From Bacillota bacterium (GTDB lineage: Bacteria > Bacillota > Clostridia > Tissierellales > MES13), in the NCBI GenBank assembly GCA_009711765.1, contig VEND01000037.1:1-55811 (forward strand): a stretch of DNA of 55,811 nt. Direction: 5' to 3'. The notes beneath the pieces were generated by a model. It ran no database searches. It saw only the letters and a program-made list of their open reading frames with translations, and had not been told where the DNA came from. Made by a program: the position numbers and the translations under genes. Shown here in pieces: positions 13,411-37,414 of this stretch (position 1 is its first letter; every line of letters starts with the position of its first letter).

Positions 13411-14175
13411 CTAATAAAAACTTTCTATAAGGGATTTTATTACTAAAAACCATCCATCAACCATTACAAATAAAAGTAATTTAAATGGTAATGAAATCAT
13501 AACCGGAGGTAGCATAAACATACCCATAGACATTAATATACTAGCAACTATTAAATCTATAACTATAAAGGGTATAAATAATAAAAACCCTATTTGAAAA
13601 GCGGTTTTTAATTCACTTATAACAAAAGCAGGAACTAATACTCTAAAGGGTGTATCTAGTCTTTCTTTAGGTAAATCAGATTTTGACATATTTATAAAAA
13701 GTGCTAAATCCTTTTCTCTAGTTTGCTTTAACATAAATTCCTTTATAGGTTCAGAGCCTACTTCTATAGCCTTATCTTGACTTATAGTTCCTTCTAAGTA
13801 TGGATTAATAGCATCATCAATAACCTCTCCATATACAGGTGACATTACAAAAAGTGTCATAAACAGAGCTAAAGCTATTAAAATCTGATTAGGTGGAGTT
13901 TGTTGAGTTCCTACTGCATTTCTAAGTAAAGATAATACTACAATTATCCTTGTAAAGGAAGTCATAAGTATTATAAATGAAGGCGCTAAAGCTAAAAAGG
14001 TAAAAAGTATTAAAAGTTTTAATGAACTGACAACTTCCTTAGGGTTACCATCTTCTCCTATATCAAATCCTAAACCAGGTATTTTAATTTCTAAAGGTTC
14101 AGCAGAAACCTTACTTGTAAAGGTAAATAGTATTAAAATTATTGTTAGTATAATAAATTTTTTTTTGTTTTTCAT
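13411..14175 (-). CDS. fliP: Flagellar export gate protein FliP
   Basis: A 254-residue membrane protein with a cleavable-looking signal sequence (MKNKKKFIILTIILILFTFTSKVSAEP) and the FliP family core (SFTRIIVVLSLLRNAVGTQQTPPNQILIALALFMT). It forms the central pentamer of the export channel together with FliQ and FliR. The start overlaps the fliO stop by 4 nt (ATGA type), so the two are coupled. Normal length. Confidence 0.96.
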   Translation of the reverse strand: MKNKKKFIILTIILILFTFTSKVSAEPLEIKIPGLGFDIGEDGNPKEVVSSLKLLILFTFLALAPSFIILMTSFTRIIVVLSLLRNAVGTQQTPPNQILIALALFMTLFVMSPVYGEVIDDAINPYLEGTISQDKAIEVGSEPIKEFMLKQTREKDLALFINMSKSDLPKERLDTPFRVLVPAFVISELKTAFQIGFLLFIPFIVIDLIVASILMSMGMFMLPPVMISLPFKLLLFVMVDGWFLVIKSLIESFY

Positions 14176-14525
14176 TTTTTTAACATACCTTTTCTTAATT
14201 TTTTATAATTTTCAAGTAGTGCTTCTTTAAAATCATATTTCCCTTCTTGAGAGTACTTTTCAATCTCATCTTCCTTAAGTTCAGTTAAAACTTGAATATT
14301 ATTTTCTGATACCCCTAATACAACATATTTTTCACCTAATTTAGCAATACATAATGAAGACTTATTATGTAGAGGTATTTTTTCAATAATCTTCATATTT
14401 TTACCTTTGTTATACTTCATCAAGTATTTATTACTTAACCTTAAACTTATATAGGCAAGTATTACTACTATAGGAAGTGCTACTAATAATTTTAGAAAAC
14501 TAAAAAGAAACGAAGTGTCATTCAT
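14172..14525 (-). CDS. fliO: Flagellar biosynthesis protein FliO/FliZ
   Basis: A 117-residue protein with one N-terminal membrane helix (LLVALPIVVILAYISLRL) and a small cytosolic domain (KNMKIIEKIPLHNKSSLCIAKLGEKYVVLGVSENNIQVLTEL), the FliO pattern. FliO assists assembly of the FliP ring. Low sequence conservation is usual; identification rests on the motif and on its place directly before fliP. Confidence 0.88.
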   Translation of the reverse strand: MNDTSFLFSFLKLLVALPIVVILAYISLRLSNKYLMKYNKGKNMKIIEKIPLHNKSSLCIAKLGEKYVVLGVSENNIQVLTELKEDEIEKYSQEGKYDFKEALLENYKKLRKGMLKK

Positions 14526-14538
14526 CTTATCACTCTTT

Positions 14539-14979
14539 CTATTGAACCATAAAGTCTGTTATATATACATCGTTGATTACATTTTTATCAAATATTACAT
14601 TTACCTTTTCTAGTATTTCTTTTTTTAATGAATCGGTTTTTTCAACGGTTTTAATATCATCAATTTCTTTACTTCTTAAAATCCTAATAATAATATCCTT
14701 TATTTGAAATTTCCTTTTCTCTAAAATCTCTATATCCTCTTTATTTTTATATGATAAAACAATTTTTGTTTTTAAATATCTATTTATTCTATCATTTTTA
14801 AGATTTACAACAATTTGTCCAACTTCATAATTAAAACTTGTATCCTTTTCTTTAAAAAGTTCAATGTCTTTAAATGTGTCTGTGGCTATATATAAATATC
14901 CCGTAACTGCTGCTAGAATAATTGCTATGATAAGTGGTATAATTATTTTTAATTTACTCTTTTTCTTCTTCTCTTCCAT
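14539..14979 (-). CDS. fliL: Flagellar basal body-associated protein FliL
   Basis: A 146-residue protein with a short basic N-terminus, one membrane helix (IIIPLIIAIILAAVTGYLYIA) and an extracytoplasmic domain related to stomatins (VGQIVVNLKNDRINRYLKTKIVLSYKNKEDIEILEKRKFQIKDIIIRILRSK). FliL rings the stator and tunes motor torque. It follows motB and overlaps it by 26 nt. Confidence 0.92.
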   Translation of the reverse strand: MEEKKKKSKLKIIIPLIIAIILAAVTGYLYIATDTFKDIELFKEKDTSFNYEVGQIVVNLKNDRINRYLKTKIVLSYKNKEDIEILEKRKFQIKDIIIRILRSKEIDDIKTVEKTDSLKKEILEKVNVIFDKNVINDVYITDFMVQ

Positions 14980-28061: not shown

Positions 28062-29765
28062 TTATCCAAGTTGTTGTGCTAACCAATTACTTTGACTATT
28101 CATACTAGCTATTGCTTTTTCCATTGCTGTAAATTCACTATAATACCTTTTTTCAACATTATCTAAACGATTATTCATATCCATTATTCTTTCTTCCATG
28201 TTTATTAAATCTTCACTAAGCATACTTATACTATTATATTCGGATACAAATTTAAGTAACATTTCTGATTTTACATCCCTATATAAATCAGAACTTTCAC
28301 CAGGGCCTGATTTAGTAATTATCTTTTGCATTCCACTTGCTAAGTTATCATGTAATCTATTAATAAGTCCACTTTCTTCTCTCTTTTGCTGAATTTGATC
28401 TGCAGTTAGATTTTTCTCAAAACTTGTCCTTAATGTGCTATCTTCTGGTTGTTTAAAGAAAAGCTCTAACACATTATCAACATCTTCACTAATAGCTTCT
28501 TTTAACTGATCTGGATCTTTAATAGTTAATTTCCCATAACTTGTACCACTTGACCAACTTTCAGTTGTTATGCCTATTTCAGTTAGCTGATTAAACTCTC
28601 CATCAACACCTTTAACTTCCTCATACATTCCACTTCTTACTTTATTCATTGTAGAAGAAATTATCATATCATTTTTAAGTAATCCACTTTTAGCCTTTTC
28701 TTCCCAAAGCTCTACATTTTCATCTGACATAGCTTTTTTTTCCTCATCTGAAAGTGGTTTATAATCTCTATATCTTTTCTCTCCTAATATTTCTCTAGTA
28801 TCAACCACAAGTTTATTATATTTTTCTATAAAACCTTCTATTTTTTCATAAACTGAATCGACATCCGTATCTACATTTACAGTTATATTTTCAGCTGAAG
28901 TTCCATTTAAGTTAAAGTTAATACCATTTATTTCAAAGTTATTAGATTGTTTTTCTATTCCTGTAGCTCCATTAAAGTCTATTTTAGCATTTTCACCTTC
29001 ATTAAGTTCCCCATCAGTAAGACTTAGTTTTAATTTATCTCCTGTTCCTGATAGAAAATTAATATGATTTATATCCTTATCATAATCCCCTGTATCTTTA
29101 TTATAAATTCCTTGATGTACTCTAACATTATTTGACTTTCCTGTTTTATCTGTTTGTAAAAAAAATCTATCTATATCACTATCATATATTGCTGTTACTC
29201 CTAAGTCTGCATCATTTATGTCATCTACAACATCTTTTAAAGTAGTTTCATCTAATTTAGATTCACTAGTCGAACTATAAGAAAATGTTTCTCTTTTATC
29301 TCCATTTTCTGTTTCTATAGTAAATTCTATAGCATCATTAGCTGAGTCTAATCCAAATTGTGTTGCTAAACTCGTCTTATCTCCACTTGATATATTACTA
29401 TCACTTGCTGCTGAAAAGTTATCAGCAAGCTGTGTTACCTTAATATCATAACTACCATCTATAGCTGAGGTATTACTACTTACAGTCGCCACACTTTCAT
29501 CTGATGATGTTGCTGATTTAACCCAATCAGATCTATCTAATGCACTAGATACAGAAACACCTTGATCTAGTCCAAAATCTTCCCTTGTTTCTATAACAAA
29601 GTTAGCAAAGTCTTTATTTAATTTATGATATCTCTCCTGTCTCCACTCTATAACTTGTTTATCCTGTTCTAATTTAGTAAGTTTTGTCTTTTCAGCCTTC
29701 ATAAGCTCTTTTACCATACTATCTATATCCATACCTGATGCTAATCCACTTATTTGTAAACTCAT
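28062..29765 (-). CDS. fliD: Flagellar filament cap protein FliD
   Basis: A 567-residue cap protein starting MSLQISGLASGMDIDSMVKELMKAEKTKLTKLEQDKQVIEWRQERYHKLN, the canonical FliD N-terminus, with the C-terminal coiled region EERIMDMNNRLDNVEKRYYSEFTAMEKAIASMNSQSNWLAQQLG. FliD sits at the filament tip and lets flagellin polymerise; it is often an adhesin. Transcribed after flaG from a sigma-28 promoter. AAGGAGG precedes the ATG. Confidence 0.95.
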   Translation of the reverse strand: MSLQISGLASGMDIDSMVKELMKAEKTKLTKLEQDKQVIEWRQERYHKLNKDFANFVIETREDFGLDQGVSVSSALDRSDWVKSATSSDESVATVSSNTSAIDGSYDIKVTQLADNFSAASDSNISSGDKTSLATQFGLDSANDAIEFTIETENGDKRETFSYSSTSESKLDETTLKDVVDDINDADLGVTAIYDSDIDRFFLQTDKTGKSNNVRVHQGIYNKDTGDYDKDINHINFLSGTGDKLKLSLTDGELNEGENAKIDFNGATGIEKQSNNFEINGINFNLNGTSAENITVNVDTDVDSVYEKIEGFIEKYNKLVVDTREILGEKRYRDYKPLSDEEKKAMSDENVELWEEKAKSGLLKNDMIISSTMNKVRSGMYEEVKGVDGEFNQLTEIGITTESWSSGTSYGKLTIKDPDQLKEAISEDVDNVLELFFKQPEDSTLRTSFEKNLTADQIQQKREESGLINRLHDNLASGMQKIITKSGPGESSDLYRDVKSEMLLKFVSEYNSISMLSEDLINMEERIMDMNNRLDNVEKRYYSEFTAMEKAIASMNSQSNWLAQQLG

Positions 29766-29777
29766 TAATCTACCTCC

Positions 29778-30104
29778 TTAAGCTCTTTTATCAACTAAAA
29801 GTCCTGCTTTTTCCATAAAGTCTGCAACCATATCTAATATTTTCTCCGGTGGAATTTCTCTTATAATTTCATCTGTATCTGAATCTATAACCTTTATCAT
29901 TATATCCTTAGTTTTTTCATGAACTGAAAATTCAAGTCTTCTATTATCTAGAATTAGTTTTTCATTTGATTGTTTTATTTCATCTATTACATTACCTTTA
30001 CTTTTTTCTTTTTTTACTTTCTCTTTTACATTAATTAGATTTTCATTTCTAAAATCATTATTATTTTTTACAGTATTACTCCTACTCACCCCTGATATCT
30101 CCAT
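29778..30104 (-). CDS. flaG: Flagellar protein FlaG
   Basis: A 108-residue protein ending LEFSVHEKTKDIMIKVIDSDTDEIIREIPPEKILDMVADFMEKAGLLVDKRA, which is the FlaG (YvyC) domain with its hallmark 'vIRqIPpE' core. FlaG influences filament length in several bacteria. Start ATG 30104 follows GGGAGG; a frame start at 30119 would lie upstream of this site. First gene after the sigma-28 promoter at 30148-30174. Confidence 0.9.
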   Translation of the reverse strand: MEISGVSRSNTVKNNNDFRNENLINVKEKVKKEKSKGNVIDEIKQSNEKLILDNRRLEFSVHEKTKDIMIKVIDSDTDEIIREIPPEKILDMVADFMEKAGLLVDKRA

Positions 30105-30147
30105 ATCCTTCCCTCCCAATTTTCATACCGTTACCTTCTTTATATTT

Positions 30148-30435: not shown

Positions 30436-30570
30436 TATTAAGGTTTAACCACAGTACCGTCCTAGATACTTTCAAATATTAATAGTAAATCCTATTGCTA
30501 ATACACTTTTAGAATTAAAAATATCCTAATCGCATTTTTTATTATCATTAGTATCCCTTTTTAATCCTTA
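30436..30570 (-). pseudogene. Highly decayed IS transposase relic (copy 1)
   Basis: On the minus strand fragments such as GLKRDTNDNK and later SKS...IGFTINI...YLGRYCG correspond in order to GMKRDTNVNN and SKSELPLDILVTPANTYDGTVAIP of the relic at 32.0-32.8 kb, interrupted by stops and frameshifts. It is therefore a remnant of the same DDE-type insertion sequence, more degraded than copy 2. Similarity may continue to about 30390. The remaining gap from 30175 to 30435 shows no gene. Confidence 0.65.
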
Positions 30571-32009: not shown

Positions 32010-32764
32010 TTATGATTCATAAATGCCGTTAAACAGCTTCATTAACGAATTAATTGAATTTAAAGCGATAGCCCCTGCAATAAATGATATACAATTTAAT
32101 AGTGAATGAACCTTAGTTTTTTTAATGCACTTAAAAATATCTTTATAGTTGTCTAGAATTTGTTATATTAAAGGTATAGCTACAGTACCATCATAAGTAT
32201 TTGCTGGAGTTACTAGTATATCTAATGGTAGTTCACTTTTAGAATTACATAATATATGAATTTCCAATCAAACCACCGTATGTTATTAACATTAGTATCT
32301 CTTTTCATTCCCAAATTAGGATTAGTTCCATCATCTTTAATTTTTTTTGACTTTGTAGCCCCATAAAAATCTAACTTTGTTGAATCAATATATACACTAT
32401 CACAATCAATTATATTTAGATCCTTAGCTAATATTACTAGTTTATGGAAAAGTTTTTCAATCTCATCTGTTTGAGTTAATTTATTTAAAAACCTGCTAAA
32501 TGTGGATTCAGAAGGTGTTTCACCATGAAATTCGAATCCACAACAGTATCTTAGAATTCGATTCTGTCTTAGGTTAAGAACTAAATCTTTAATAGTTTGA
32601 ATTTTTTCAACTTGCATAGATAGCTATTAAACCATATATCAATGGCGTTGGATTATAGCCTTTCGAGCCTTTAAACCGCTAGATTTCCTTAACTTATTAG
32701 TTAATTTTATAATATCAATTTCAGATAAAGTCATTTCTAATTTAGTTTCTTGTTGAAATCCCAT
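32010..32764 (-). pseudogene. Degenerate DDE transposase gene (IS1182/IS5-like, copy 2)
   Basis: The reading begins at ATG 32764 (MGFQQETKLEMTLSEIDIIKL), shifts frame (KGSKGYNPTPLIYGLIA), shifts again to an open stretch 32617-32222 (MQVEKIQTIKDLVLNLRQNRILRYCCGFEFHGETPSESTFSRFLNKL, the DUF772-type N-domain, then VYIDSTKLDFYG with a DDE aspartate, then GMKRDTNVNNIRWF), and continues after another shift with SKSELPLDILVTPANTYDGTVAIPLI, a stop, and a C-terminal remnant to about 32010. At least three frameshifts or stops make it inactive. A more decayed copy lies at 30.4-30.6 kb. Confidence 0.85.
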
Positions 32765-33202: not shown

Positions 33203-35998
33203 TTACCAATCTAAAGAATTTTCATACCCTAAATCTATTAATAACTTTCCGGCAATTTCTTTAAAAGTTTCTTTGTCATCCTTAGTTAAATCTTTCTTCC
33301 AACGATGAATTGATTTACTATATAATCCTTTTGAAACTTGATCAGTACTCGACTCATTTGGTTCATATCCACGATCAATACTATTATAGCTTAAAACTTG
33401 TTCTACCCAGGGTTCATCTAAAAAATCTAGTACATTCTTCATAACTTTTTCAGGGTTTTTGATTAGATCTTCATATTTAATTAATTTAACCCTACCTTTT
33501 AGTAATGGATGCTTTGAGTCTTGTATGCTTTTTACAATTACTTGACTCCAATATTTGGTTGCTTTTTCAATGTTTTGAACATACGGTAAAGGCTTCCCTT
33601 CAAAGTCACGCCAATTCATGGTCACTAATGAAGAAGTTACATCTCTTCCATCTCTTATAACGTTAACAAATTTAGCATTTGGAAAAATACTAACAAGTTC
33701 TTTCATAATTAATACATTATGAGGAGTTTTTTCGACAATTCGCTTAGCAGAGTTATCCTTCTTAAATTTTTGAAAAAAACTACTAATAAAAGAGGCAAAT
33801 GATTGATTAATGTCATTTTTATTTAAGTTATAGGCCTGCCTTATATCTTTCAAACTTATCATTTGGTTATATATACCTGACAAAGGTTGTAACATTTTAA
33901 ACTCAGGACCTGCACATAGGTTAGGATGAGCGTTAAGCATCACTCTTAACAACGTAGTTCCTGACCGTCCAGCACCTCCTATAAATATTGGACTAGATTG
34001 ATTAGATCCAATAGTTGTATTTGAGTGAGTTGATGTTATAGTTCTTTTTTTACTACTTGATATTTTATCTAAGATTATCTCCCTATAATTTGTTTTGTCA
34101 ATATTATTTAATAATTTATTTAACTTTAGTTTGTCTCTATTTCTTAAATAATCCAACTGAAAAATAAGGTATTCGAAAATTTCATTATTCTGTTCCCCTG
34201 ATTCTATAGCTTTTAATAAATTTAGGAATGAATTTTCATAATCATTATTATAATAATATGCTTTTCCAAGCTTGATGTATCCCTCTCCATCAATTACGGT
34301 ATGGGTTAAAGCGCTTTGATAATACCTAATTGCTTCCTTATATTTATTATTTTTATAAAATACATCACCAATAATTAATCCTAAATTACATGAAAATTTT
34401 TCTGCTAAACTTAAAAAGGAATCAGTAGTCTTTGTAGCATCAATTCTTATTAGTGTATCAAGAATAATCTTATATTCCTTAATATTATCTTGTTTTAATT
34501 CTTGAGACTCTTTTAAAAAACAACCTACTATCTTTTGTGATTCATTAGTTAAATTATCTTTATATTTATCGTATAAATTTTTATCTCTTTTAAGTATTAT
34601 ATTAACTATTAATAAATAATATAAGTTCTCGTCTTTCTCATAGTTTTTTAATAAATATGAAAGTGTCTTATTATATTCACCACATAATAACAAATAAAAT
34701 ACAGAATATTCTTTTTTACCTACAAGTTCGGTTAATTTTTTTTGATAATAAGCAATTAATATCCTATTATTAACATCAGATGAAGCATCTATTAACATTT
34801 GAATACTATCTTTATCCTTAAGGTTGTAAATTTTATTTAAGAATCTAATAGTATCTGTCTCACTTTCCTCAGTTAATAACTTCAATAATTTTTTCAATAC
34901 AAAACTTTGGTTAGGATTAAATTGAAGTGACTTAGTGAACATATAAACCGCAGTTTCGTAATCCTTCATCAAACTATATATTAATCCCTTATACTTATAT
35001 ATTTCTGGCATCATCTTAAAGCCTGAGTCTAGCATTTTAGTCTTACTTTCAATTTTTTCATTACTGTCTAAAGCCTGTGAAAAATTATTAAGAGATTCAC
35101 TATATCTATATTCTTCAAAATTAATTAATCCCTTAAAAAAGTTCAATTCTGGATTATCAGGAAATTTTTTAAAAAACTTTTCAATATAATATCTTATAAT
35201 GTTTCTTAGCTTTTGCTTTTTATCTTTATCATTTTCTATTTGCTCTTTTAACCCTACATAGCCTCTAATTAAACTTAAATACGGTAAATAATCTAAAGTA
35301 TCGTCACCAATTCTTCCTAATTCTATAGACTGTTTTGCATAATCTATTTGTTTTTGAAATTCACCCTTTGCAGAATATTCAGTTGACAAATAGTAAGGTA
35401 TCAGTGGATTATTAGGATTATTCTTTTCAGCTTGACGCAATAGGTTTATATTTCTTTCTGATTTATTTTTTTCATTTTTAGTCTCTTTAGTATAACCTGT
35501 GTGTATAATCTCTAATTGCTTAGAGCCATCTAGTATTTTTAGGCTCTTACCATTCTTTACTAAATCCTCATGAATTACACCCTTATATCTAATCGCCTTA
35601 CTATTTTTAAAAATCCTTGTATTAATATTAGAAAAGGCTACTTGACCATTATCGTTTAGGTTTATAATATTAACATATATACCGTCAAATTTTTTAGCTT
35701 GTTTAATTATATTTTCATAACTTTCTCTTTTAGAATCTTTAAAGTATTCATCTGCATCAAGAAAAACTATCCAATCTCCGCTAGCTTTACTAATAGTAAA
35801 ATTTCTCGCAGCTGAAAAATCATTATTCCACTTATAAGTATATATCTTAACACCCATCTCTTTTGCTATAGCCAAAGTGTTATCCTTCGAACCTGTATCA
35901 ACATATATTACCTCATCACAAATATCTAATAAACTCTTTAAACATTTTTTAATAGTTTTCTCTTCATCTTTTGCTATAACACATCCTGATAATTTCAT
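33203..35998 (-). CDS. Glycosyltransferase family 2 - TPR - sulfotransferase fusion protein
   Basis: A 931-residue three-part protein. Residues 1-230 are a family 2 glycosyltransferase (MKLSGCVIAKDEEKTI; VDTGSKDNT; FLDADEYF gives the metal-binding DxD-like motif). Residues 230-650 are tetratricopeptide-type helical repeats. Residues 669-931 are a sulfotransferase with the 5'-phosphosulfate loop FIGGAGRSGTTLLR and the 3'-phosphate motif VIRDGRDVTSS; the segment LLRVMLNAHPNLCAGPEFK resembles that of tyrosylprotein and Sulfotransfer_3 enzymes. It is cytoplasmic, with no signal peptide. ATG 35998 has AGAGGTG upstream, right behind the flagellin terminator, so it is probably expressed by read-through. 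Position suggests modification of flagellin with a sugar and a sulfate; the acceptor is not shown. Low-GC codon use as in neighbours. Confidence 0.9.
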   Translation of the reverse strand: MKLSGCVIAKDEEKTIKKCLKSLLDICDEVIYVDTGSKDNTLAIAKEMGVKIYTYKWNNDFSAARNFTISKASGDWIVFLDADEYFKDSKRESYENIIKQAKKFDGIYVNIINLNDNGQVAFSNINTRIFKNSKAIRYKGVIHEDLVKNGKSLKILDGSKQLEIIHTGYTKETKNEKNKSERNINLLRQAEKNNPNNPLIPYYLSTEYSAKGEFQKQIDYAKQSIELGRIGDDTLDYLPYLSLIRGYVGLKEQIENDKDKKQKLRNIIRYYIEKFFKKFPDNPELNFFKGLINFEEYRYSESLNNFSQALDSNEKIESKTKMLDSGFKMMPEIYKYKGLIYSLMKDYETAVYMFTKSLQFNPNQSFVLKKLLKLLTEESETDTIRFLNKIYNLKDKDSIQMLIDASSDVNNRILIAYYQKKLTELVGKKEYSVFYLLLCGEYNKTLSYLLKNYEKDENLYYLLIVNIILKRDKNLYDKYKDNLTNESQKIVGCFLKESQELKQDNIKEYKIILDTLIRIDATKTTDSFLSLAEKFSCNLGLIIGDVFYKNNKYKEAIRYYQSALTHTVIDGEGYIKLGKAYYYNNDYENSFLNLLKAIESGEQNNEIFEYLIFQLDYLRNRDKLKLNKLLNNIDKTNYREIILDKISSSKKRTITSTHSNTTIGSNQSSPIFIGGAGRSGTTLLRVMLNAHPNLCAGPEFKMLQPLSGIYNQMISLKDIRQAYNLNKNDINQSFASFISSFFQKFKKDNSAKRIVEKTPHNVLIMKELVSIFPNAKFVNVIRDGRDVTSSLVTMNWRDFEGKPLPYVQNIEKATKYWSQVIVKSIQDSKHPLLKGRVKLIKYEDLIKNPEKVMKNVLDFLDEPWVEQVLSYNSIDRGYEPNESSTDQVSKGLYSKSIHRWKKDLTKDDKETFKEIAGKLLIDLGYENSLDW

Positions 35999-36013
35999 AA
36001 ATACACCTCTCAT

Positions 36014-36046
36014 AAAAAAAGAGGCCTTAGTGACTAAGACCTCTTT
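36014..36046 (-). terminator. Flagellin terminator overlapping the leader of the fusion gene
   Basis: Minus strand AAAGAGG-T-CTTAGT / ACTAAG-G-CCTCTTT, about 12 bp with one mismatch, then TTTTTTT. It starts about 10 nt after the flagellin stop, and the T-run ends only a few bases before the ribosome site of the glycosyltransferase-sulfotransferase gene. Leakage here would give low, flagellin-linked expression of that gene. Confidence 0.9.
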
Positions 36047-36055
36047 ATATATTAA

Positions 36056-37414
36056 TTATCTTAATAATTGAAGTACTGCTTGTGGTTGTTGATTAGCTTT
36101 AGCAAGCATTGCTTGAGAAGCTTGAGATAGTATAGATGCTTTAGTTTGCTGCATCATTTCCCTAGCCATATCAACATCTCTTATTCGAGACTCAGAAGCA
36201 GTTAAGTTTTCAGATGCTGTACCTAAGTTGTTAATTGTATGTTCTAGTCTATTTTGATATGCACCTAATTTAGAACGTTCAGCAGAAACATCTTCAATAG
36301 CAGTACTAATAGAAGTTACTGCTTGTTTAGCTGTATCATAAGATGAAACATCTAAATCATTAATATTTAATGCAGAAGATCTCATATCTCCAATAGCTAC
36401 TCTCATAGATTGATCTTCATTTGCACCAATCTGAAGTTGAAGGGCAGCGCCAGATACTTCTATAGATGCAGAAGCATTTCCTAAGGTATTATCAACTGTT
36501 AAACCGAATCCACCTGCATTCATATCACCATCTGATGACACAACATTTGTTTCTTGTGCTATTTGAGTACCACCTTTTGAAACTGTTATAGTAGCCGCTT
36601 CCATTGCAAAATCAAAAGAAGCTGTTCCATCAGCATCGATTGCACCGCCTGCAATTGAAAATCCATCAGTACCACCTATACTAAACCCTGAAGAAACATC
36701 TTGATTAGTTAATTGAGCTATTTGATTTCCCTCAGCATCTTGTAATGTAAGTGTAGCTGCAGTATTACCTGCACTATAACCACTAACAACTAATTGAAAT
36801 GAGTCACCTATATTTACACTTGCTCCGAAACCAGCAATATCAGCCGCGTCATCAAAGCTTCCTGCTGCTGAAATATTATCAGCTGTTGCAGTTGCTCCTT
36901 CTACTTGTACTGTATAGGTTCCCTCATCCATTGCATTAATAGCTTCTGCTCCTTGAATGTTAGTTCCCCCGGCTGTTACATCAGCTTGTTGAGATTGTGT
37001 TCCATCTATTAAGTTTCTTGTATTAAATTCTGTAGTATTACCAATTCTATCTATCTCTTCTACTAGTTGGTCGAGCTCTTTTTGAATTTCCCCTCTATCT
37101 TCTGTCGTAGCTGTATCGTTAGCAGCCTGAACTGACAACTCTCTCATACGTTGAAGAATCGAATGAGTCTCATTTAATGCTCCCTCAGCAGTCTGAATTA
37201 ATGAAATTCCATCTTGTGAGTTTCTTTCAGCTTGTTCTAAACCACGAATTTGACCTCTCATTTTTTCAGATATTGCAAGTCCTGCTGCGTCATCTCCAGC
37301 ACGATTTATTCTTAAACCTGAAGATAATTTCTCCATTGAATTTTGTTGAGACTTATTAGCTTGTCCTAATTGTCTATAAGTATTTAAAGCTGCAATATTA
37401 TGATTAATTCTCAT
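36056..37414 (-). CDS. Flagellin
   Basis: A 452-residue flagellin (hag/fliC type). Conserved D0/D1 at the N-terminus (MRINHNIAALNTYRQLGQANKSQQNSMEKLSSGLRINRAGDDAAGLAISEKMRGQIRGL) and C-terminus (RIRDVDMAREMMQQTKASILSQASQAMLAKANQQPQAVLQLLR); the middle (about 150-330) is a variable, Ala/Gly/Thr/Ser-rich surface domain with many possible O-modification sites. It forms the filament. ATG 37414 follows GGGAGGA; the frame continues to 37480 but that part is the leader. Controlled by a sigma-28 promoter (37508-37535) and probably by CsrA through a leader hairpin. Directly upstream are csrA and fliW. Confidence 0.97.
   Translation of the reverse strand: MRINHNIAALNTYRQLGQANKSQQNSMEKLSSGLRINRAGDDAAGLAISEKMRGQIRGLEQAERNSQDGISLIQTAEGALNETHSILQRMRELSVQAANDTATTEDRGEIQKELDQLVEEIDRIGNTTEFNTRNLIDGTQSQQADVTAGGTNIQGAEAINAMDEGTYTVQVEGATATADNISAAGSFDDAADIAGFGASVNIGDSFQLVVSGYSAGNTAATLTLQDAEGNQIAQLTNQDVSSGFSIGGTDGFSIAGGAIDADGTASFDFAMEAATITVSKGGTQIAQETNVVSSDGDMNAGGFGLTVDNTLGNASASIEVSGAALQLQIGANEDQSMRVAIGDMRSSALNINDLDVSSYDTAKQAVTSISTAIEDVSAERSKLGAYQNRLEHTINNLGTASENLTASESRIRDVDMAREMMQQTKASILSQASQAMLAKANQQPQAVLQLLR

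Follow-up and report, generated by a model that had tools for sequence, protein, structure and literature searches.

A single continuous gene in a Tissierellales bacterium (Bacillota; lineage MES13) joins a family 2 glycosyltransferase (GT2), a helical-repeat region and a PAPS sulfotransferase (ST), and lies directly behind flagellin. We propose, with a probability of roughly 0.6, that it encodes a cytoplasmic two-step flagellin-modifying enzyme, which would add first a sugar and then a sulfate. What would be new is the extension of GmaR-type flagellin glycosylation by a sulfation step of the tyrosylprotein sulfotransferase (TPST) type. That the ST recurs next to flagellin in Bacillota that are unrelated and for the most part salt-loving suggests a kind of bacterial flagellum, sulfated, that is not yet described.

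The gene was found in a stretch of 55,811 nucleotides (contig VEND01000037.1), which we call the window. Its open reading frame is uninterrupted, with 936 amino acids from the first ATG and 931 from M6 (35998); because a ribosome-binding-like stretch, GAGAGG, precedes the M6 ATG, the likely start is at 35998, giving a protein of 931 residues. The initial annotation had described one frame made of GT2, helical repeats and a C-terminal PAPS sulfotransferase, placed directly behind flagellin, and had quoted the motifs VDTGSKDNT, LDADE, GGAGRSGTT and RDGRDVTSS. All four motifs are present, the flagellin is on the same strand, and the domain search that had been suggested matched each of the three parts in Pfam: Glycos_transf_2 at residues 6-117 (E 1.7e-22, well above cut-off), TPR_2/TPR_1 at residues 331-363 with weaker TPR matches at 543-598, and, at the C-terminus, Sulfotransfer_3 at residues 670-864 (E 6.2e-36, 125 bits against a cut-off of 27) and Sulfotransfer_1 at residues 670-922 (E 7e-17). 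A PHROGs search gave weak or generic matches at best. In a full-length AlphaFold2 model (pLDDT 78), the GT (mostly 81-97) and ST domains are confident, the solenoid is all-helical with moderate to low confidence, and the linker at residues 650-666 is probably flexible. We considered whether the fusion might be a chance, assembly, frame or annotation artefact, but this is ruled out by an independent GT-TPR-ST fusion of 1042 amino acids, found at the corresponding locus position in Salinibacillus kushneri.

Table 1. Features of the flagellin-fliD interval in the window
Feature	Coordinates	Strand	Basis
Flagellin, 452 aa, presumed substrate	36056..37414	-	Flagellin_N + Flagellin_C
Terminator-like hairpin between flagellin and fusion gene	36018..36046	-	Consensus scan
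GT2-TPR-sulfotransferase fusion gene	33203..36013	-	ORF list, Pfam, AF2 model
GT2 domain, residues 3-200, GmaR/SunS-like, VDTGSKDNT + LDADE	35399..35992	-	GmaR identity, Foldseek, model
TPR/helical-repeat solenoid, residues about 174-653	34040..35479	-	TPR_1/TPR_2, model
Low-confidence linker, residues 650-666	34001..34051	-	pLDDT <50
TPST-type PAPS sulfotransferase (ST) domain, residues 667-931	33206..34000	-	Pfam, structure matches, catalytic residues
Second sulfotransferase ST2, 329 aa	30778..31767	-	PF13469 E 3.6e-15; Salinibacillus homolog
flaG	29778-30119		ORFs + homologs in related loci
fliD, downstream edge of flagellin-fliD interval	28062..29765	-	ORFs + homologs in related loci

The N-terminal part resembles a known flagellin glycosyltransferase. 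The GT domain is 39% identical to that of GmaR (E 1.1e-35), a Foldseek search with it returned SunS and ThuS, and the position of the GT2-TPR gene next to flagellin holds for the window and for its homologs. By GT kinship, TPR content and gene position, the fusion would be a GmaR-type GT2-TPR flagellin glycosyltransferase, for which sugar transfer is predicted.

The C-terminal domain had been noted as resembling TPSTs, a likeness that sequence, profile and structure matches now bear out. Its strong matches among solved structures are exclusively protein-tyrosine sulfotransferases and PKS sulfotransferases, and the best, both in sequence and in structure, are the human and tick TPSTs. Identity to human TPST1 is 30% over 253 aligned positions, with a profile match to TPST at E about 6e-37; the domain, modelled with AlphaFold2 (pLDDT 86), can be superposed on TPST1/2 at a TM of about 0.78, compared with about 0.47 for heparan sulfate 3-OST. 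Human TPST1 R79, E100, K159 and S286, which we take to be the catalytic residue set of TPST, align to ST-domain R19, E40, K98 and S225, all four of which are invariant in 10 homologs, as are ST-domain S20, G21, T22, T23, R123 and S131. The 5'- and 3'-phosphate loops and the catalytic residues of the ST thus appear intact. The TPST1 arginines R102, R106 and R123, which presumably recognise acidic residues flanking the tyrosine to be sulfated, align to K42 (invariant), to P46 or a variable residue, and to a non-basic position, the alignment of R123 being uncertain by about one residue.

The surroundings of the fusion gene are flagellar. The flagellin is the genome's sole PF00669 flagellin apart from flgL, and 57 nt separate it from the fusion gene start at 35998. 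The terminator-like hairpin in this gap has a stem of 13 bp; the scan that detected it found 3 such hairpins in the region against 1.8 expected. Downstream, ST2, a gene left out of the initial annotation, sits between the fusion gene and flaG/fliD, and the order flagellin, GT-TPR-ST, ST2, flaG, fliD is common to the window and Salinibacillus, whose ST domains are 71% identical and whose ST2 proteins are 51-52% identical at equivalent positions. Salinibacillus holds the sole strong ST2 match among 397 genomes of its order, a hint that ST and ST2 moved as a pair. No solved-structure relative of ST2 was found by sequence. Debris of a transposase (DUF772) separates ST2 from the fusion gene, and ST2 is flanked by two degenerate stretches (30490-30570 and 32220-32311) in direct orientation, about 85% similar and spaced by 1.73-1.74 kb, the right-hand one falling inside the broken transposase; an insertion sequence may have moved ST2. 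A congener (G001) has flagellin followed by GT-TPR, with no adjoining ST, and then a methyltransferase-GT2 fusion in the flagellin-fliD interval (L039:13083-15002), implying that this interval swaps modification genes within the genus.

We surveyed relatives using the ST alignment, rather than flagellin, as bait. A profile search of genome contigs gave six loci. Within the order of Salinibacillus (397 genomes) there were six matches at E<1e-50, and three of these were new; the class of the window (391 genomes) held, besides the window, weak matches alone; and in its phylum (398 genomes) the window was the sole match at E<1e-40. With so few close matches in these searches, the ST family is rare. 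Nine of ten close homologs, a count that includes the window itself and related, non-independent genomes, lie in flagellin or flagellar loci. A survey showing the architecture unlinked to flagellin had been named in the initial annotation as a refutation, and the outcome here was the opposite. Wherever flagellin is alongside, a flagellar-type GT2 adjoins the ST or is fused to it (8/8).

The arrangements vary. Salinibacillus kushneri has its fusion followed by ST2; in Gracilibacillus dipsosauri, GT-TPR is followed by a GSCFA-ST fusion, and in a further genome (G667) by a pyruvyl-transferase-like-ST fusion. An ST standing alone follows GT-TPR in Alkalibacillus almallahensis and in two other genomes, G512 and G495, where a methyltransferase is also present, G495 having a further ST. 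In MAG FK2.bin46 the ST lies between two GT2s with flagellin on the contig, and in MAG DX2.bin28 within a flagellar export gene cluster. In Sporosalibacterium, the ST is beside cysD/cysN, away from flagellin, and the flagellin has a GT-TPR without ST. One locus (L046) initially seemed non-flagellar, its genes being masked by long spurious ORFs in DNA of high GC content; tblastn placed a flagellin about 5.6 kb away, and it was dropped as a non-flagellar case. Plasmid homologs are less than 32% identical, and none of the four inspected is in a flagellar setting. No sugar-nucleotide pathway was found to be conserved alongside the ST.

Several further features of these loci were recorded. Because one genome fuses the ST to GSCFA (L043:8696-10786) and another to a polysaccharide pyruvyl transferase-like domain (L075:8826-10709), the ST can be regarded as a module with changing partners. 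In three genomes an ORF of about 110 amino acids with no Pfam match lies between flagellin and GT-TPR (L043:6301-6642, L044:7644-7976, L097:849-1175); its product may have a helper role comparable to that of GlfM, a factor described for Maf-2. In Gracilibacillus, two similar 329-aa proteins with a P-loop-like start, GMMKTATTY (L043:12246-13235 and 13592-14581), are encoded downstream of GSCFA-ST; the first has no Pfam or NCBIfam match, and both are possible divergent sulfotransferases. In Sporosalibacterium faouarense, a second small, divergent Sulfotransfer_3 protein (L042:10892-11647) adjoins the ST and cysD/cysN; close by, and outside the flagellar locus, is a series of unusual glycosyltransferases.

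The trees of the two halves of the fusion conflict. In the ST tree, the window and Salinibacillus are sisters, with support (93/85) that just misses the threshold for strong; the GT tree places them in different well-supported groups, and their pairing is rejected (AU p 1.3e-7). Simple vertical descent of one fused gene was therefore dropped despite the sisterhood of the STs, and the conflict implies either two origins of the fusion or a transfer of the ST domain between GT backgrounds.

The host is predicted to make PAPS: CysD, CysN, CysC and CysQ are encoded in one cluster, cysQ-cysD-permease-cysN-cysC (L038; G000:C9:44296-50207), the permease being of DASS/CitMHS type. The cluster adjoins polysaccharide biosynthesis genes, and CysN ends, at the C-terminus, in an additional APS-kinase-like domain that is degenerate. 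Because the host genome (94% complete) has no NIR_SIR (sulfite reductase) match, this PAPS is unlikely to feed sulfate assimilation; the genome contains two Sulfotransfer_3 genes in total, both at the flagellin locus. PAPS synthesis tracks the presence of ST. A strong APS kinase match is found in 9/9 ST-containing genomes tested; there is none in the ST-less congener (88% complete), and among other members of the window's order only one of 19 (G016) has one. Because APS kinase in Bacillaceae serves assimilation too, this co-occurrence is informative in the window's order alone.

These observations suggest how the enzyme might work. The GmaR-like GT2 domain would attach a sugar, which by analogy would be GlcNAc or another HexNAc, to Ser/Thr of flagellin, which would be held unfolded or chaperoned by the TPR solenoid; the TPST-type domain would then move sulfate from PAPS onto the new sugar, before export. 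ST2 would probably add a second sulfate or sulfate a different position. PAPS would come from the host CysD/CysN/CysC, with the by-product PAP cleared by CysQ, and the filament would bear a sulfated, strongly anionic O-glycan.

If the ST domain is active, its fold alone would suggest another acceptor, tyrosine. On that unlikely reading it would be a bacterial TPST acting on flagellin tyrosine independently of the GT, which would itself glycosylate Ser/Thr of TPR-bound flagellin. Indeed, TPST is the best match by every measure given above, far ahead of 3-OST in structure, the presumed catalytic set is fully conserved, and Tyr359 and Tyr167 of the window's flagellin lie near acidic residues. However, a comparison of seven flagellins that adjoin an ST found no tyrosine common to all of them: Tyr13 is missing from two, and the flagellin of G495 has no other. 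The presumed substrate-reading arginines of TPST1 are not kept, the flagellin-adjacent ST always has a GT2 partner, and PKS sulfotransferases (CurM) and, weakly, NoeE belong to the same family yet do not act on tyrosine. A glycan is favoured as the probable sulfate acceptor because the partner flagellins share no tyrosine and the GT2 partner is constant. Ser/Thr are plentiful in these flagellins, with fourteen alignment columns Ser/Thr in all seven; because these columns are Ser/Thr in the ST-less congener too, we propose no modification site.

It is less probable still that the fusion modifies a flagellin glycan while its ST has a different target, either a soluble sugar nucleotide or another cell-surface glycan or protein, the proximity to flagellin reflecting shared regulation. 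The Sporosalibacterium locus, the fusions to GSCFA and pyruvyl transferase-like domains, and the non-flagellar settings of the distant plasmid homologs are what such a role would lead one to expect, but the position between flagellin and fliD is conserved and in two genomes the ST is fused directly to a flagellin-type GT-TPR. Nor, given the transposase debris beside ST2 and trees implying that GT and ST move separately, did we overlook the idea that the ST is a recent, functionally idle acquisition on mobile DNA. This is very improbable: the frame is intact and every catalytic residue kept, members of two classes have kept close homologs at flagellin, and APS kinase and ST occur together. Sugar transfer followed by sulfation of flagellin is accordingly the reading carried forward here, and to it we attach, at somewhat less than even odds, a broader proposal: that this single polypeptide is a two-step flagellin line, performing O-glycosylation and then glycan sulfation on a TPR-held substrate, and part of a wider flagellin-sulfation system of Bacillota, mostly from saline habitats where these are named, with a parallel in haloarchaea and their sulfated archaella.

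If correct, the joining of a sulfotransferase to a flagellin glycosyltransferase in one protein would define a class of flagellar decoration that is chemically new. The enzyme would be a compact protein modifier working in two steps, possibly usable as a sulfation tool for intact protein, and the system would allow one to test whether swimming filaments have adapted to salt in parallel, the glycan perhaps conferring a benefit in saline habitats. A direct test is feasible, as the ST-containing strains Salinibacillus kushneri, Gracilibacillus dipsosauri and Alkalibacillus almallahensis are culturable. A literature search, mostly outside subscription journals, returned no sulfated bacterial flagellin and no sulfotransferase at bacterial flagellin loci, and a term search of a survey published in 2026 on flagellar glycosylation islands in Clostridium showed no sulfotransferase (PMC13317340). 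Archaella are described as motility filaments bearing sulfated sugars; in the papers on bacterial flagellin that we found, the glycans carry other acidic groups.

Finally, the proposed enzyme can be set beside known systems. GmaR of Listeria monocytogenes, a flagellin GlcNAc transferase and MogR antirepressor, is described as transferring GlcNAc to flagellin, and its TPR is proposed to recognise flagellin (PMC9638930). Like the fusion, GmaR has an N-terminal GT2 followed by TPRs, and flagellin is its acceptor, as presumed here; it continues into a linker and antirepressor domain and has no sulfotransferase, whereas the fusion ends in a TPST-type domain. The peptide S-glycosyltransferases SunS and ThuS also combine GT2 with a helical C-terminal part and glycosylate a polypeptide directly, the role proposed for the fusion, but they act on Cys of glycocin peptides, and the fusion falls below the SunS curated cut-off (110.6 vs 350 bits). 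TPST1 and TPST2 have the fold, PAPS loop and R/E/K/S residues in common with the ST domain, which, unlike them, is bacterial, fused to GT-TPR and without two of the three arginines presumed to read the substrate. Type B flagellin of Clostridioides difficile carries a taurine-derived sulfonate on its glycan (PMC5207245); this sulfur-bearing acidic O-glycan, which starts from GlcNAc-Ser, is found in a related class of bacteria, but it is a sulfonate and not a sulfate ester, and the word sulfotransferase is absent from that paper. Halobacterium archaellins bear sulfated N-glycans (PMC11239922) made with dedicated sulfotransferases (PMC11980604). Although those of Halobacterium salinarum are archaeal and N-linked, and involve other enzymes and another filament, they too place sulfated sugars on the motility filament of a halophile, as we propose for these Bacillota.
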